Positions 5,692 to 31,305 of a stretch of DNA of 64,000 bases are shown one piece after another. Numbering within the stretch: position 1 is the first letter of the stretch; every line of letters begins with the position of its first letter. Location of the stretch: NCBI RefSeq assembly GCF_030542105.1, contig NZ_JAUOFB010000001.1:1116001-1180000 (forward strand). Reading direction: 5' to 3'. Origin of the DNA: Hymenobacter sp. BT730 (GTDB lineage: Bacteria > Bacteroidota > Bacteroidia > Cytophagales > Hymenobacteraceae). The position numbers were made by a program, and so were the translations under genes. The notes under the pieces were generated by a model. It was not told the origin of the DNA. It was given only the letters and a program-made list of their open reading frames with translations, and made no database searches.

Positions 5692-6735
5692 ATGCAAAAT
5701 AACTTCGACGCCGTGCGACTGGGGCTGGCACTAATAGTCGTCTTCTGCCATGTAGCGGTCCTTACTCAGCTGCCAGCATTCCAACCGTTCCTCAATTATC
5801 TATCGGCTGATTTTGCGGTAAAGGGCTTTTTCGTGCTGAGTGGCTGCCTTGTTACCCGCAGTTTCCTAAGCAGCGCTACTGGGCTGGAGTATGCTCAAAA
5901 ACGGGTGCGGCGTATCTATCCGGCTTATCTCACCACCATAGGCGTAGCCTGGCTGATTGGGCTGGCGGTAACCAGCCTGCCGGCAGCCGATTTTCTGCAA
6001 TCCACGGCAGCATACAAATACTTGGGAGCCAACGCTTCCTTCCTCAACTTTCTTCAGCCCACTTTACCCGGTGTATTTGAGCAGCACCCAGTTCCGGTTA
6101 TGAACGGCTCTTTATGGACGATAAAGGTGGAACTGTGCTTGTATGCCTGCGTGCCCCTCCTTGTTTTCTTGTTTCGCCGAATTGGGCCTTATCCGGCGGC
6201 AATACTAGCTTTTTTGATAGCATTGGTTTGGGATTGGCTGCTACCGCACGTAGCAGGTCTTAGCCCCAAAATGGTAGCGGAGCTAGGCCGGCAGTTTCCC
6301 GGGGCGCTGCATTTATTTGCATTCGGAGCGCTGTATACGGTGGAGGAGCGGCGCCTGGGGCCCATCATCGGTTGGGTAGCGTTGGGAACGTTTAGTATTT
6401 TGATGCTCTTCCCTGATTCAGGTCTGCAACGGGTGGTAGAGCCCGTGTGCTACGCGGCCAGTGTGCTGTTTTTCGCTACCCGGTTGCCTGTTCACCTGAA
6501 TGCGGGGAAGTGGGGCGACTTATCCTACGGTACCTACTTGCTGCACTTTCCACTCATTCAATTGTTTATTCAACTCGGCCTGTTCAAGGCTAACCCCTGG
6601 CTGGGGCTGGCCGGGTTGCTCCTCACCGTTCTGGGTGCCGCATTTCTGCTCTGGCACTTCATAGAAAAGCCCTTTTTAAAGCGCAGTTCCCACTACCTTG
6701 CCACCGAAGTAGCCACCAAAACCGTTGCCTACTGA
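5692..6735 (+). CDS. Membrane acyltransferase, acyltransferase-3 family
   Basis: A 347-residue integral membrane protein with about ten hydrophobic segments. It has the family hallmarks: an N-terminal RLGLALIVVFCHVAV with the conserved histidine, FAVKGFFVLSGCL, an RRIYPAY motif, and NGSLWTIKVELCLY. The C-terminus reads YGTYLLHFPLIQ...LWHFIEKPF. Such proteins (OatA, OafA, ExoZ relatives) O-acetylate or otherwise acylate surface sugars. The ATG at 5692 is used; an in-frame TTG at 5671 would add 7 residues. Location after glf suggests it decorates the galactofuranose-containing glycan, which is an inference. Confidence 0.85.
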   Translation: MQNNFDAVRLGLALIVVFCHVAVLTQLPAFQPFLNYLSADFAVKGFFVLSGCLVTRSFLSSATGLEYAQKRVRRIYPAYLTTIGVAWLIGLAVTSLPAADFLQSTAAYKYLGANASFLNFLQPTLPGVFEQHPVPVMNGSLWTIKVELCLYACVPLLVFLFRRIGPYPAAILAFLIALVWDWLLPHVAGLSPKMVAELGRQFPGALHLFAFGALYTVEERRLGPIIGWVALGTFSILMLFPDSGLQRVVEPVCYAASVLFFATRLPVHLNAGKWGDLSYGTYLLHFPLIQLFIQLGLFKANPWLGLAGLLLTVLGAAFLLWHFIEKPFLKRSSHYLATEVATKTVAY

Positions 6736-6855
6736 CGCTGAGCTTCAGCCTGGACCGTGCAGCAGTTGCCACTGGCCTTGACCCGGCACTACCCCTCTAA
6801 ATCAGCCAGATTGGCGGTGCGTTACGGATTGGGGCGGTTTTGGATAGAAATCTTG

Positions 6856-6863
6856 TAAATTTG
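6856..6863 (+). promoter_or_regulatory. Candidate -7 box for secA
   Basis: TAAATTTG matches the Bacteroidota -7 consensus TAnnTTTG exactly and lies 37 bp before the secA ATG. No TTG/TTTG element sits at the usual ~19 bp spacing (a TTTG is 13 bp away), so only the -7 part is supported. Confidence 0.4.
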
Positions 6864-6900
6864 AGGTACGCCCCGGCGTTTTCAGTCAATATCTACCAGC

Positions 6901-9900
6901 ATGTTTGATTTTTTAGGGAAGGCAGTTGCCAAAGTGTTCGGGACCAAGTCCGAGCGGGATTTGAAAGAGATTCTGCCGTATGTGGCACTCATCAATGCCG
7001 AATATGCCAAACTGGCACCGCTCACCGACGACCAGCTGCGCCAGCACTCTGCTGATGTTCGCGCCCGGATTGACGAGCGTCTTAAAGGCATCGACGACCA
7101 GATTGGCGGCCTGCATCAGCGCATTGCTGACGAGGCGAACCTGGACATCATCGAGAAAGAAAAAATCTTCGACCAGATTGATGCGCTGGAAAAGCAGCGG
7201 AACAAAGATCTGGAAGTAGTCCTGCTGGAAGTATTGCCGGCGGCCTTTGCCACCGTAAAGGAAACCGCCCGCCGCTACAAGGAAAATGGCCAGCTGGTGG
7301 TTACTGCTACGGATTTCGACCGGGAAATTTCCCGTCGCAAAGCCAACGTAACCATTCAGGGCGACCAGGCTATCTGGAGCAACAAGTGGATTGCCGGCGG
7401 TGCCGAAATCACCTGGGACATGGTGCACTACGACGTGCAGCTGATTGGCGGCGTGGTACTGCACCAGGGTAAAATTGCCGAAATGGCCACCGGTGAAGGT
7501 AAAACGCTGGTATCTACCTTACCAGCTTTCCTCAACGCCCTGGCCCGCCGTGGCGTGCACCTGGTTACGGTGAACGACTACCTGGCCAAACGTGACTCCG
7601 AGTGGAATGCGCCGCTGTTCGAGTTCCACGGCATCACCGTGGACTGCATCGATAAGCACCAGCCCAACACCGATGCCCGCCGTGCGGCCTACGCCGCCGA
7701 CATCACCTACGGTACCAACAACGAATTCGGCTTCGACTACCTGCGTGACAACATGGCCCGCGAAACCGGCGAGCTGGTGCAGCGCAAGCACCACTATGCC
7801 ATGGTGGACGAAGTGGACTCCGTTTTGATTGACGATGCCCGGACCCCGCTTATCATCTCCGGCCCCGTGCCCCGTGGTGATGTGCACGAGTTTCTGATCC
7901 TGAAGCCCCGCATTGAGCAGCTGGTAAACGAGCAGAAAAAGCTGGTGCAGCAGTACCTGGTGGAAGCCCGCAAGCTGATTAAAGAAGGCAACGACGGCGT
8001 GAAGGAAGGCGAAGGCGGCCTGATGCTGTTCCGCGCTTACCGTGGTCTGCCCAAGAGCAAGCCCCTCATTAAATTCCTCTCGGAGTCTGGCATGCGCGTG
8101 GTGTTGCAAAAAGTGGAAAACCACTACATGCAGGACAACTCCCGCCAGATGCCCGAGGCCGACAAGCCCCTGTTCTTCACCATTGATGAGAAGAACAACC
8201 AGATTGAGCTGACCGAGCGTGGCATTGACCTGATTACGGCCCAGGGCGAAGATCCGCACCTGTTTATCATGCCCGACATCGGGATGGAAATTGCGGCCAT
8301 TGAAAATAGCAAAATCATCAGCGACGACGACAAGCTGCACCAGAAGGAGCAGCTGATCAACGACTATCAGGAGAAGAGCGAGCGGGTGCACACCGTCAGC
8401 CAGCTGCTGAAAGCTTACACCCTGTTTGAGCGCGACGACCAGTACATCCTGTCCGAAGACGGCAAGGTGAAGATTGTGGATGAGCAGACAGGCCGCGTAA
8501 TGGAAGGTCGCCGCTACTCTGATGGTCTGCACCAGGCCATTGAAGCCAAGGAAAATGTGCGCATCGAAGATGCCACGCAGACCTACGCCACCGTAACGCT
8601 GCAGAACTACTTCCGCATGTACCACAAGCTGGGCGGCATGACGGGTACGGCCGAAACCGAAGCCGGCGAGTTCTGGGAAATCTATAAGCTGGACGTGGTG
8701 GTAGTGCCCACCAACCGCGGCATTTCCCGCAAAGACGAGCACGACAAGGTATACAAGACCGTACGCGAGAAGTACAACGCCGTAGCCGAGGAAATTCAGA
8801 CGCTGGTGAAAGCCGGCCGCCCCGTGCTGGTGGGTACCACCAGCGTGGAAATTTCTGAGCTGGTGAGCCGTATGCTGAAGCTGCGCAACATCCCGCACCA
8901 GGTACTGAACGCCAAGCAGAACCAGCGCGAAGCCGAGATTGTAGCCGGCGCGGGTCATCCCGGCACCGTGACCATTGCCACCAACATGGCCGGTCGGGGT
9001 ACTGACATTAAGCTGCGCGGCACCGCCAAAGAGGCCGGTGGTCTGGCCATTATTGGTACCGAGCGCCACGAGTCACGCCGCGTAGACCGCCAGCTGCGGG
9101 GTCGGGCCGGCCGTCAGGGCGACCCGGGTTCTTCGCAGTTCTTCGTTTCCCTGGAAGACAACCTGATGCGTCTGTTTGGCTCGGAGCGCATTGCCAAGCT
9201 GATGGACCGCATGGGTCTGGAAGAAGGCGAAGTGATTCAGCACTCCATGATTACCAGCTCTATTGAGCGTGCGCAGAAGAAAGTGGAAGAAAACAACTTC
9301 GGCATCCGCAAGCGCCTGCTGGAGTACGATGACGTGATGAATGCCCAGCGCGAGGTGGTGTACAAGCGCCGCCGCAACGCCCTGTTCGGTGAGCGTCTGG
9401 AACTGGACGTGTGGAACATGATTTACGATGTGTGCGAAAACATCGTGGCCGCCCACAAAGTCACCAACGACTTCGAAGACTTCAAGCTGGCCGTTATCCG
9501 CCTGTTCAGCTACGACACGCACCTCACCGCCCAGGACCTGACGAGCCTGCCCGCGGCCCAACTCACCCAGAAGCTCTACGATGAGGCCCTGGGTTACTAC
9601 GATGACAAGAGCCGCGTGATTGGCGAGCATGCCCTGCCGCTCATCAACGACCTGATTTCGCAGAACGCCCCCTACGAGAACATTGCCGTTCCCTTCACCG
9701 ATGGGCGCAAGCAGATTCAGTCGGTGGTAAACCTGCGCCGCGCCCAGGCCAACAAAGGCCAGGAGCTGATTCGCGGCATGGAGAAAGTGGTAACGCTTTC
9801 CGTGATTGACACGGCCTGGACGCAGCACCTGCGCTCGATGGACGACCTGAAGCAGGTGGTGCAGAACGCCGTGTACGAACAGAAAGACCCGCTGCTGATC

Positions 9901-28783: not shown

Positions 28784-30340
28784 TTACTCTCCTAGATTTT
28801 CCTTGGTAATAACATCTACCAAGCCATCCTCGCTGACCACCACGGCCAGGCACGGGTAAGGGCTGCTTTCCACGTAGCGAATGGCCGAGTTGTAGCGGGC
28901 GCCCCGGGTACTGGTGCCGCGCCCGGTAGCTTTGCCATCCAGAATAACGCCAATAGAGTAGCAGTATCCGTCGGGGTCAAGGAGAACCGCGCCGTCGATG
29001 GCGGTGATAAGGCGGGTAATAAGCGGGGTAAGCGGCACGGGCTCAATGAGGGTGCATTGCAGCTTAAGCCGGTCGGCCTCGGCCAGTGCCTCCGTGGTGA
29101 TGACTAATAGAGTGCCGTGTTTCTGCCGGCTGGCTTCCATCATAACATCCCAGAGACGCTCTATTTTGGCAGAATCGGTAAGGCCGAAGGTATGCCGCAG
29201 CTCGCGGCGGAAATGGGTGCGGTTAAGGCGCGTACGAGGCAGGGTGGGCGTGCCATAGTTGGCGCGCATCAGCACCTGGCCATCGTGCTGAAACTCCCAG
29301 ATATAGTGCTTCACGAAGTTGATGACAAACAAGTCTTCGCGGGCAGGGTCGTAGTTGCCCACCAGGCGGCCCAGTGCGTACACATTTTCGCCATCGGCCA
29401 GCAGGCTTACATCGGCCGTAGCCATTTCCAGCAGCTTGCGCACGGCGCGATAGTCGGTGAGCGGGGTAGGGCAGGTGAGGGCAAATACCTCCTCCAGATT
29501 GGGGTGGCGCCGGCGGGCCAGCAGCAGCTTCCCTACCCCTTCGGCCCCCTCGTAGCGCAGGGAGGAAATGGTAGTGCAGGTGGCAAACAGCTTGGCCAAA
29601 GTAGGGTCCAGATCCAGGTCCTGGGCCGGCGTATCCATAAAAAGGCGGCCAGCAGCGCGAATCAGCTCGTCGGTGTCGCGGGGGCGCATGAACAGGCTCA
29701 GGCCGGCTTCGGGCTCGTTCAGCGCTTTCCAGCACTCTTCATGAAAGCGGATAACAACAGCCTGAATTAGCGAAGTAGCCAGGGGCCGTCCATCGGTGTA
29801 GTACCGCTCGGGCTTCAGCGCGGCATAGCGGCGCGTTACTTTGGCATTTAGCTGCAGTACCGTAAGCACAAAATGATTGTGGACCAGCACGGGCATGCCC
29901 ACAAAGCTGACCCGCTTGTGGCTGGCGGGGTCGGCATCAAATACCTCCTGCACGGCCCGGCGCAGGGATACGCCTTCCTGCCGCCACTGCTCATACCATT
30001 CTGATACCACCTCATAGCCCCGGAAAGGCCAGGGCTCTTCCTGCTGCAAAGCCAGTCCGCGCTGCCGCACTCCTAAAAACCGCTCCCGGTCGGGCAGGGC
30101 ATTTGCGGGCTCCAGGCACACGTTAGGGTCCGAGCCCAGGGTTTGGGTAGCAGGAATACCCAGCAGGAGTACTGTAGGGTTTAGCTCCTCATCCAGAGCA
30201 TCAAATACGCTCTGGGCACTTTGCTGCGCCCCCTGCCGAAACCGGGCCTGATGTGGCCACATAGCCAGCGGGCCGACAACCGGCTCGGGGGCAATAGGCT
30301 GTACGGGCGGGGCACTCAGTAAGGGAAGCGGAGCAAGCAT
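28784..30340 (-). CDS. DACNV-like protein: divergent diadenylate-cyclase-type domain
   Basis: A 518-residue soluble protein. The last ~100 residues resemble the DisA_N/DAC fold: helix ERLWDVMMEASRQKHG, strand TLLVITTEA, then IDGAVLLDPDG (Asp449-Gly-Ala, the DGA motif), GVILDG, RGARYNSAIRYV and CLAVVVSEDG. In active cyclases the second motif is GTRHR; here it is GARYN (480-484), so histidine and the second arginine are lost. This matches what I recall as the DACNV predicted nucleotide-sensor family rather than a working cyclase. The N-terminal ~400 residues are unassigned; a DGA-like hairpin recurs near residues 306-326. It starts 27 bp after the TonB-C-domain gene on the same strand. Confidence 0.65.
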   Translation of the reverse strand: MLAPLPLLSAPPVQPIAPEPVVGPLAMWPHQARFRQGAQQSAQSVFDALDEELNPTVLLLGIPATQTLGSDPNVCLEPANALPDRERFLGVRQRGLALQQEEPWPFRGYEVVSEWYEQWRQEGVSLRRAVQEVFDADPASHKRVSFVGMPVLVHNHFVLTVLQLNAKVTRRYAALKPERYYTDGRPLATSLIQAVVIRFHEECWKALNEPEAGLSLFMRPRDTDELIRAAGRLFMDTPAQDLDLDPTLAKLFATCTTISSLRYEGAEGVGKLLLARRRHPNLEEVFALTCPTPLTDYRAVRKLLEMATADVSLLADGENVYALGRLVGNYDPAREDLFVINFVKHYIWEFQHDGQVLMRANYGTPTLPRTRLNRTHFRRELRHTFGLTDSAKIERLWDVMMEASRQKHGTLLVITTEALAEADRLKLQCTLIEPVPLTPLITRLITAIDGAVLLDPDGYCYSIGVILDGKATGRGTSTRGARYNSAIRYVESSPYPCLAVVVSEDGLVDVITKENLGE

Positions 30341-30367: not shown

Positions 30368-31201
30368 CTATAGCTGGAATACAACCGGCAACACCATCTT
30401 TTGCTTTATGGGCTGGCCTTTATAGCTGGCCGGTGCCCATTTGGGCGCCGCTTTCAGCAGGCGGATGGCTTCTTCATCACAGCCGGAACCAATGCGCTTC
30501 ACGGGCTTGATATCCGTAAGGGTGCCATCTTTCTGCACAATAAACTCCATAATCACGCGGCCTTCCACTTTGCGCTGCCTGGCCAGGGACGGGTACTTCT
30601 GATTCTGCTGAATCCAGGCAAAAAAAGCTTCTGTGCCGCCTACCGGGCGGGCAGGCTGGTCGGGGGCAATAACGGTGGGCGTGCTGGTTTCGGCTGGCAC
30701 GGACGCTGGGGCGGCCGCTGCTGAGGTAGTTGGCACCGCCGGGGTAGTAGCTGCCGGTGCGGCGGCACTACCGGCATCGGCCGGAATCTGGAACGTAATA
30801 GGAATGCTCATGCGCTGCCGCACTTTGGCCCCTTTATGCATGGCCGGGGTCCATTTGGGGCCGCTTTGGATGGTGCGCACTGCCTCACGGTCCAGGTCGG
30901 CGTCGCCGGGCTGTATGGGGGCCACCTCGGTCAGGTCACCGGATTTCTCTACTACAAAGGAAACCGTAACGGTGCCTTGCACCCCGCGTTGCAGGGCCGC
31001 CGTGGGATAGTTCTGGTGGTCGGCCAGGTACTGGCCATAGGCCTCCAGGCCGCCTACCGGAATGGCAGGCTTCTCTACCGCATCATATACTTTATCTTTC
31101 TCCGGCTTCGGGTATTTCAGCTTTTTCTGAGCGTAAGCAGGAGCCAGGCTAACGGTGATTAGGCTGAAGAGCAGGACCAAACGGGAAACGAAACGCATCA
31201 T
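30368..31201 (-). CDS. Secreted protein with two tandem TonB C-terminal domains
   Basis: A 277-residue protein with signal peptide (MMRFVSRLVLLFSLITVSLAPAYAQ). Domain 1 (about residues 42-135) and domain 2 (about 185-277) are repeats: both begin PVGGxEA, continue with YPTAALQRGVQGTVTVSFVV or YPSLARQRKVEGRVIMEFIV, include EAVRTIQSGPKWTPA or EAIRLLKAAPKWAPA, and end in P-I/V-x-F-Q. The linker is Ala/Pro/Thr-rich. There is no retained membrane anchor or ExbB/D-coupling helix, so it is not a classical TonB energiser. It probably forms an operon with the DACNV-like gene 27 bp downstream. Confidence 0.85.
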   Translation of the reverse strand: MMRFVSRLVLLFSLITVSLAPAYAQKKLKYPKPEKDKVYDAVEKPAIPVGGLEAYGQYLADHQNYPTAALQRGVQGTVTVSFVVEKSGDLTEVAPIQPGDADLDREAVRTIQSGPKWTPAMHKGAKVRQRMSIPITFQIPADAGSAAAPAATTPAVPTTSAAAAPASVPAETSTPTVIAPDQPARPVGGTEAFFAWIQQNQKYPSLARQRKVEGRVIMEFIVQKDGTLTDIKPVKRIGSGCDEEAIRLLKAAPKWAPASYKGQPIKQKMVLPVVFQL

Positions 31202-31305
31202 AGCAACATGTGAGATAAAGGAAAACCCGGGCGTGCCGGCCATGCATCCTCAACGGTACAAGCCGCCCTGTGGGTTCAGGATATATGCAAAGAGTCGAAT
31301 TTCAA

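Follow-up and report, generated by a model that had tools for sequence, protein, structure and literature searches.

What does a protein with a diadenylate cyclase fold do when part of the catalytic signature of such enzymes has been exchanged for other residues? The question is raised by a 518-residue protein of Hymenobacter sp. BT730, encoded on the minus strand at 28784..30340 of the 64,000-nucleotide stretch of DNA analysed here (the window), where the reading frame is open at exactly these coordinates. An earlier note on this DNA had read DGA at residues 449-451, GARYN at 480-484 and VVSEDG at 501-506, and all three motifs lie where it placed them (VVSEDG running from V501 to G506).

Domain architecture and predicted structure

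The N-terminal part of about 400 residues, which the earlier note had left unassigned, contains two Pfam domains, DACNG at residues 27-235 (29636..30262, minus strand; PF21752, 222 bits, cut-off 27) and DACNH at residues 250-353 (29282..29593, minus strand; PF21750, 102.8 bits, cut-off 27), both described by Pfam as probable sensor domains. The C-terminal DAC (DisA_N) domain that the note had proposed occupies residues 401-514 (28799..29140, minus strand), and its PF02457 score of 40.4 bits (curated cut-off 27) means that the resemblance is not due to chance. All three domains exceed the Pfam gathering score, the protein is thus a member of the DACNG-DACNH-DAC architecture, and Pfam finds in it no output domain other than DAC. 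Galperin reportedly described N-terminal domains of the DACNG/DACNH type in 2023 and is said to have noted their link to CBASS.

The AlphaFold2 model of the whole protein (60-row alignment; mean pLDDT 89.3, pTM 0.84) agrees with this assignment. Residues ~375-518 match DisA and CdaA chains with a best Z of 13.9. Of 816 chains aligned, 72 reach Z 8 or more; among the fold matches listed, the 40 DAC entries have Z 11.5-13.9, and the best 50 of 139 Foldseek matches, which fall on the C-terminus of the model, are all DisA, CdaA or CdaM-type structures. The best single match is a DisA (4yxm, Z 13.9), with CdaA entries tied within 1. DisA carries other domains where the window protein has DACNG and DACNH, and the DAC domain of the window protein, by contrast, is C-terminal and devoid of RHR. 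Sequence searches of the PDB with the single sequence or a 60-row profile gave no match, nor did PADLOC or the phage records searched. DACNG modelled alone (residues 24-246) has a pLDDT of 90.8; its best fold match, Z 5.4 to 5l09, is below the level at which matches are trusted, the weak likenesses (Z 5.4 or less) being to GAF-type, LuxR-type and IclR ligand domains, and Foldseek gives no match at E 0.001. As DACNG is without a confident fold match, the description of the enzyme as ligand-controlled draws on the Pfam name and on domain order.

The comparison of the protein with DACNV-type domains, made in the earlier note, was abandoned: PF21751 matches neither the window protein (E up to 1) nor any part of the Hymenobacter sp. 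BT730 genome, and seven of nine DACNV loci read GG[TS]RH[LFM] and lack ILDG, a motif of the protein considered below. DACNV-DAC proteins do resemble the window protein in joining a putative sensor to a DAC-like domain whose second motif is altered, but their N-terminal domain is a different one. In those seven loci (L253-L259) FGAK replaces ILDG, which makes them a second non-canonical class of DAC proteins; the same search found no DGA in the other two.

Active-site residues across the family

Of the features of a canonical diadenylate cyclase, the window protein has the DAC fold and DGA (28988..28996, minus strand; D449 and G450 are common to canonical CdaA) and lacks RHR, in whose register it reads RYN. 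Canonical enzymes have xGxRHR where this protein reads RGARYN, at residues 479-484 (28889..28906, minus strand). When 60 diverse members of the family were aligned by MAFFT with 31 canonical domains of CdaA from their phylum (Hymenobacter sp. BT730's own and 30 found in other genomes, in a search that gave no DAC match in an E. coli control genome), GARYN fell in register with GxRHR, as the earlier note had assumed, and the idea that a proper alignment might recover an RHR was rejected on this ground. The family shares G409 with CdaA, and D449, G450, L467, G480, R482 and S503 with all 31 of these domains, whereas other positions separate the two groups: residue 468 is Asp in 60/60 family members and Pro in 31/31 CdaA, Y/F483, N484 and D505 of the family stand for His, Arg and Glu, and Arg488 and Ile448 (each in 58/60) for Gly and His. 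The window protein differs from CdaA also at further positions and in having no CdaA_N transmembrane domain. D468 belongs to the motif ILDG (residues 466-469; 28934..28945, minus strand), where CdaA has a conserved Leu-Pro at its base-recognition residue Leu188.

The motif change is not peculiar to the window protein, as had first been thought, but family-wide. RG[AS]R[YF]N was found by regular expression in 151 of 154 distinct family sequences, so that the second motif is indeed conserved among homologues, as had been supposed; L109 and L152 fit the pattern, L074 reads RGARLN, and L091 is a fragment outside the range of the search which actually reads GSRYN. The last Arg of RHR is absent from all 154 sequences and the His from all but one. 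As far as these sequences tell, RG[AS]R[YF]N and ILDG together mark the whole DACNG-DACNH-DAC family, and GARYN is not private to one protein. The 80 genomic loci used below (the best 80 of 357 relatives) came from a scan of genome contigs whose pattern contained ILDG, so that the conservation of ILDG is circular for those loci; it is not for the B-type paralogue introduced below (53/53) or for plasmid homologues (7 found, 6 of them aligned), and RGARYN, being absent from the pattern, is free of circularity throughout.

The one sequence that keeps the His is a cyclase-like reading frame on a viral contig (L168), a remote relative that reads NGARHN and ILDG; with the family Asn already present, it may be an intermediate between RHR and the family motif.

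Within the family Hymenobacteraceae, twelve residues (D449, G450, D468, G469, R479, G480, R482, N484, R488, Y489, S503 and D505) are identical in 65/65 distinct sequences of the window's type (A) and 53/53 of the paralogue (B), and the same residues are invariant in the 60 diverse members, save for R488 (58/60). In A-type proteins, identity of at least 98% is reached at 62% of positions in the DAC domain, the most constrained part, and at 16% in DACNG, the least constrained. A sensor that diversifies while the output stays constant would be expected to give this pattern; the contrast is weaker in the B-type (46% and 34%).

CdaA offers a guide to the possible effects of the changed residues. 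Work on the Listeria enzyme reports that the backbone N and O of Leu188 hold adenine while Tyr187 stacks (PMC10167629; PMC11066881). Counting along the CdaA chain from D171 and R203, the numbering anchors given for B. subtilis CdaA (PMC8573169), Y187-L188-P189 reads YLP and corresponds to the family columns I466-L467-D468. By this alignment of sequences, rather than of superposed structures, D468 would be the counterpart of Pro189: L467 preserves the Leu that contacts the base, and the residue next to it is an invariant acid. On the phosphate side, an experiment on M. tuberculosis DacA reports that RHR to AAA abolishes both ATP binding and product, and that G73A in DGA abolishes neither (PMC3328451). 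Loss of the His and the last Arg could therefore mean that the family has no ATP cyclase activity.

This is the starting point for regarding the protein as a dead nucleotide sensor, whose DAC domain would bind a cyclic dinucleotide or a nucleoside triphosphate (for example the c-di-AMP made by CdaA) and signal to a partner through DACNG and DACNH. The near-universal loss of His and the universal loss of Arg speak for it, as do the DacA result in one canonical enzyme and Pfam's view of both N-terminal domains. D449, R482 and S503 are nevertheless kept in 60/60, 65/65 and 53/53 sequences, which is probably more than binding alone would need, and the protein has no second output domain through which a sensor might act; we hold this reading to be rather unlikely. 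An ordinary c-di-AMP synthase, converting ATP despite its motif and adding regulated inputs to the pool made by CdaA, would account for the retained fold and for the same three residues. Adenine recognition would still be possible, since the Leu that makes the backbone contacts in the Listeria enzyme is preserved (PMC10167629), and several members are labelled diadenylate cyclase in public records. Such an enzyme would, however, give no evident reason for a change of Pro to Asp and of His-Arg to Tyr-Asn that is uniform among the 60 aligned members and absent from 31/31 CdaA, if chemistry and substrate had stayed the same, and we consider it unlikely. A residue set that is both fixed and different would argue for a site that works, but differently, and a cyclase with a rewired pocket is preferred here to both the dead sensor and the ordinary synthase.

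The literature searched contained no discussion of the changed active site, but the main paper on the family lay outside it and we make no claim that the change is unreported. No paper in that literature names DACNG, a single irrelevant one came up for DACNV, and none joins Hymenobacter with "cyclic di-AMP".

Phage-defence relatives and core status in Hymenobacter

The only NCBIfam match of the window protein is NF053872 (DS2_3_antiphage; 452.5 bits, profile positions 4-487 of 576), a model that, to judge from its name and its matches, is called after the third gene of DS-2. DS-2 is presented in the DefensePredictor paper as a CBASS-type anti-phage system in which mutation of the predicted catalytic DAC residues abolishes defence (PMC13092281). 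The loss of defence in this relative counts against the dead sensor, although a site that only binds a ligand would predict the same outcome. The third gene of DS-2, the closest relative to have been characterised, shares with the window protein the DACNG-DACNH-DAC order, ILDG and RG[AS]RYN, and the Citrobacter and Gluconobacter members are 31-32% identical to it. These two plasmid homologues exceed the equivalog cut-off of NF053872, which is 630 (803.8 and 712.2 bits), and adjoin patatin and nucleotidyltransferase genes; the same three genes stand together in E. coli AR_0128, whose DAC domain, like that of the Citrobacter homologue, has RGSRYN and ILDG. The window protein scores below this cut-off, stops at about profile position 487 without the C-terminal extension, and is not a DS-2 equivalog.

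Might the gene nonetheless serve anti-phage defence of the DS-2 or CBASS kind in Hymenobacter too? This is a separate question, as such a role can overlap with the other readings. It would fit the sole NCBIfam match and the company kept by some relatives in other Bacteroidota, where CBASS-type, Septu-type (PtuA) or nuclease genes lie alongside: one (L125) adjoins PtuA- and Mrr-like genes and another (L128) a gene with a PD_DExK match and a weak NucC one. The genomic setting in Hymenobacter is a different one. Neither the 64-kb window nor any of 53 regions (A, B and related) contains a match to profiles of the DS-2-type nucleotidyltransferase and patatin, and among the best 80 of 357 relatives a DS-2-like nucleotidyltransferase lies near at least 23 of 53 loci outside Hymenobacter as against 0 of 27 within it. 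These counts are lower bounds, since the profile, seeded from two DS-2-like proteins, misses others (among them the SMODS protein of L076, found by Pfam) and short contigs truncate some loci. SMODS matches occur in 21 of 101 Hymenobacter genomes and not in that of Hymenobacter sp. BT730, although DS-2 nucleotidyltransferases obtain no more than 24.5-28.9 bits with this model, which could miss one there. DS-2 is moreover patchy, DNA like the Citrobacter gene being found by blastn in 18 of 5,426 E. coli genomes, while a family protein is present in 101 of 101 sampled Hymenobacter genomes. A defence role in this genus thus appears distinctly improbable to us.

The core status of the gene extends to its copy number. 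Two matches per genome were found in 95 of the 101 genomes and three or four in the other 6, and an overlapping draw gave exactly two DACNG matches in 66/66. Elsewhere in Hymenobacteraceae, a second genus has two DACNG matches in 8 genomes and a third has one in 2 genomes, figures that refer to matching genomes only, 54 unmatched genomes being unlisted; three other listed genera gave no DACNG match. Beyond these the protein is rare: a draw across the phylum matched 3 of 296 genomes, all Hymenobacter, and one across the order 55 of 390, no more than 3 of them outside Hymenobacteraceae and these belonging to the same genus as Dyadobacter chenhuakuii. Region L172, from a genome of the genus treated here as Hymenobacter, has sequence in common with H. 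daecheongensis, and L215, from the second genus, with H. busanensis. The two copies in Hymenobacter sp. BT730 are 41% identical, and in the tree A and B form separate clades with support of 100 each, the one-copy genus joining B (99). Of the CBASS-linked rows, 24 of 26 group together, away from A and B, with L135 and L152 elsewhere. The tree was made by a quick method, with long branches flagged, and as its root is a midpoint it gives no ground for placing defence before housekeeping; any direction of change between the two would be conjecture. The gene is core in Hymenobacter, mostly as two old paralogues, and probably inherited vertically.

The B-type cyclase, represented for instance at 5983-7479 of locus L190 (G000:C7:546448-559908), has a setting of its own, with an HI0933-like flavoprotein gene upstream in 19/20 regions and a short membrane-like protein on the opposite strand in 19/20. 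Hymenobacter sp. BT730 also encodes a canonical CdaA (C5:665874-666227; GLRHR, VVSEET) and has three DHHA1 stretches, and PF07698 (PgpH-type) finds no match in its genome. One further DAC-like match, at 15.1 bits and below the cut-off, was set aside as chance, the reading frame there looking by eye like a UDP-sugar dehydrogenase.

By record label, the family is also found in Pseudomonadota, Myxococcota, other Bacteroidota, Planctomycetota, Verrucomicrobiota, Chloroflexota, Cyanobacteriota, Actinomycetota, Thermodesulfobacteriota, Omnitrophota and Methanobacteriota, several of these phyla being represented by metagenome bins only. Members occur in Methanoperedens and Methanosarcinaceae assemblies (L113, L114, L119), themselves metagenome bins, and the family reaches archaea if that binning is correct. 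Bacillota plasmids carry DACNH-DAC members without a DACNG match, as on two Priestia plasmids (L075, 5695-7143; L076, 3302-4822) with RG[AS]R[FY]N and ILDG; on the second, a SMODS nucleotidyltransferase gene lies nearby on the opposite strand. In Chryseobacterium limigenitum (L130, 696-7740), patatin, E1-E2, JAB and DACNG-DACNH-DAC genes share a strand and make up a CBASS-like set that includes a DAC gene.

The TonB_C neighbour and a proposed mechanism

Next to the A-type gene lies the TonB_C gene to which the earlier note had drawn attention: at 30368..31243 on the minus strand, upstream of the cyclase gene and 27 nt from it, it encodes two TonB_C domains (124.3 bits) behind what looks by eye like a signal peptide. 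Other neighbours in the window include Rhodanese and Ribonuc_L-PSP genes. A TonB_C gene lies directly upstream on the same strand in 20/20 Hymenobacter A regions and 4/4 A regions of the second genus, and in 0/24 B regions and 0/5 other regions. The flanks of the A regions vary (the commonest next gene family is found in 7/20 downstream and 8/20 upstream, as counted with a crude gene caller that sometimes takes the wrong frame). Since Hymenobacter sp. BT730 has 19 TonB_C stretches in about 15 reading frames, the pairing is unlikely to be chance; a DUF4442 thioesterase-like gene, which also persists within the region in 18/20, on the other strand and at varying distance, counts against overstating it. 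Conserved synteny suggests a functional tie between the two genes.

In H. busanensis (L215) the gap after the TonB_C stop contains a GC-rich hairpin with a perfect stem of 23 bp (-63.7 kcal/mol over 79 nt; z -10.7), which argues against obligate co-transcription of the two genes there. TAnnTTTG, the consensus of the Bacteroidota -7 element, was also sought in the gaps and dismissed as chance, with 1 occurrence in 24 gaps against 0.69 expected by shuffling.

The interpretation in the earlier note is thus partly supported; it missed DACNG-DACNH, the DS-2 link, the second paralogue and the genus-wide core status. Returning to the rewired-pocket cyclase, we regard it as on balance probable that the window protein is a ligand-controlled and probably active enzyme with altered handling of substrate or phosphates, working in housekeeping signalling. 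The protein would be cytosolic, with the N-terminal sensors DACNG, fast-evolving in the A copy, and DACNH, conserved, holding or releasing the DAC domain. Two DAC subunits facing each other head to head would then join two nucleoside triphosphates between them, as in DisA and CdaA, c-di-AMP synthesis being reported to require such pairs (PMC8573169). The catalytic core (D449-G450, R482, S503) would do its usual work within a pocket rewired by D468 in place of Pro beside the base-recognition Leu and, on the phosphate side, by Y483 and N484 in place of His and Arg, all fixed. The product could be another cyclic dinucleotide, or c-di-AMP made with altered phosphate coordination; with the pocket so rewired, it would in either case be made under a rule different from that of the genome's own CdaA. 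The enzyme would be related to mobile, CBASS-linked defence genes and serve in Hymenobacter as a housekeeping pair of paralogues, of which the A copy is perhaps linked to envelope or uptake status through its tie to a TonB_C protein that looks exported.

A bolder version, which we offer as doubtful, makes the DACNG-DACNH-DAC family, hitherto named diadenylate cyclases, a separate enzyme class. At one or more of its sites the invariant Asp468 would favour some base that is not adenine (an Asp there would suit guanine), giving a different cyclic dinucleotide, and Hymenobacter would run two such enzymes, of common descent with phage-defence genes, as a core, envelope-linked pathway beside c-di-AMP.

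The significance of these enzymes reaches beyond the genus. Descriptions of DS-2 assign it a diadenylate cyclase, yet the last Arg of RHR is missing from all 154 family sequences and the His from all but one. In the canonical enzyme tested, ATP binding is reported to depend on this motif (PMC3328451). Positions 468, 483, 484 and 505, invariant yet different between the two classes, are candidates for mutation, and Hymenobacter, in which the gene is core and stands apart from CBASS genes of the DS-2 type, provides a clean setting for the question of the product. The identity of that product would show how defence of the DS-2 type signals.
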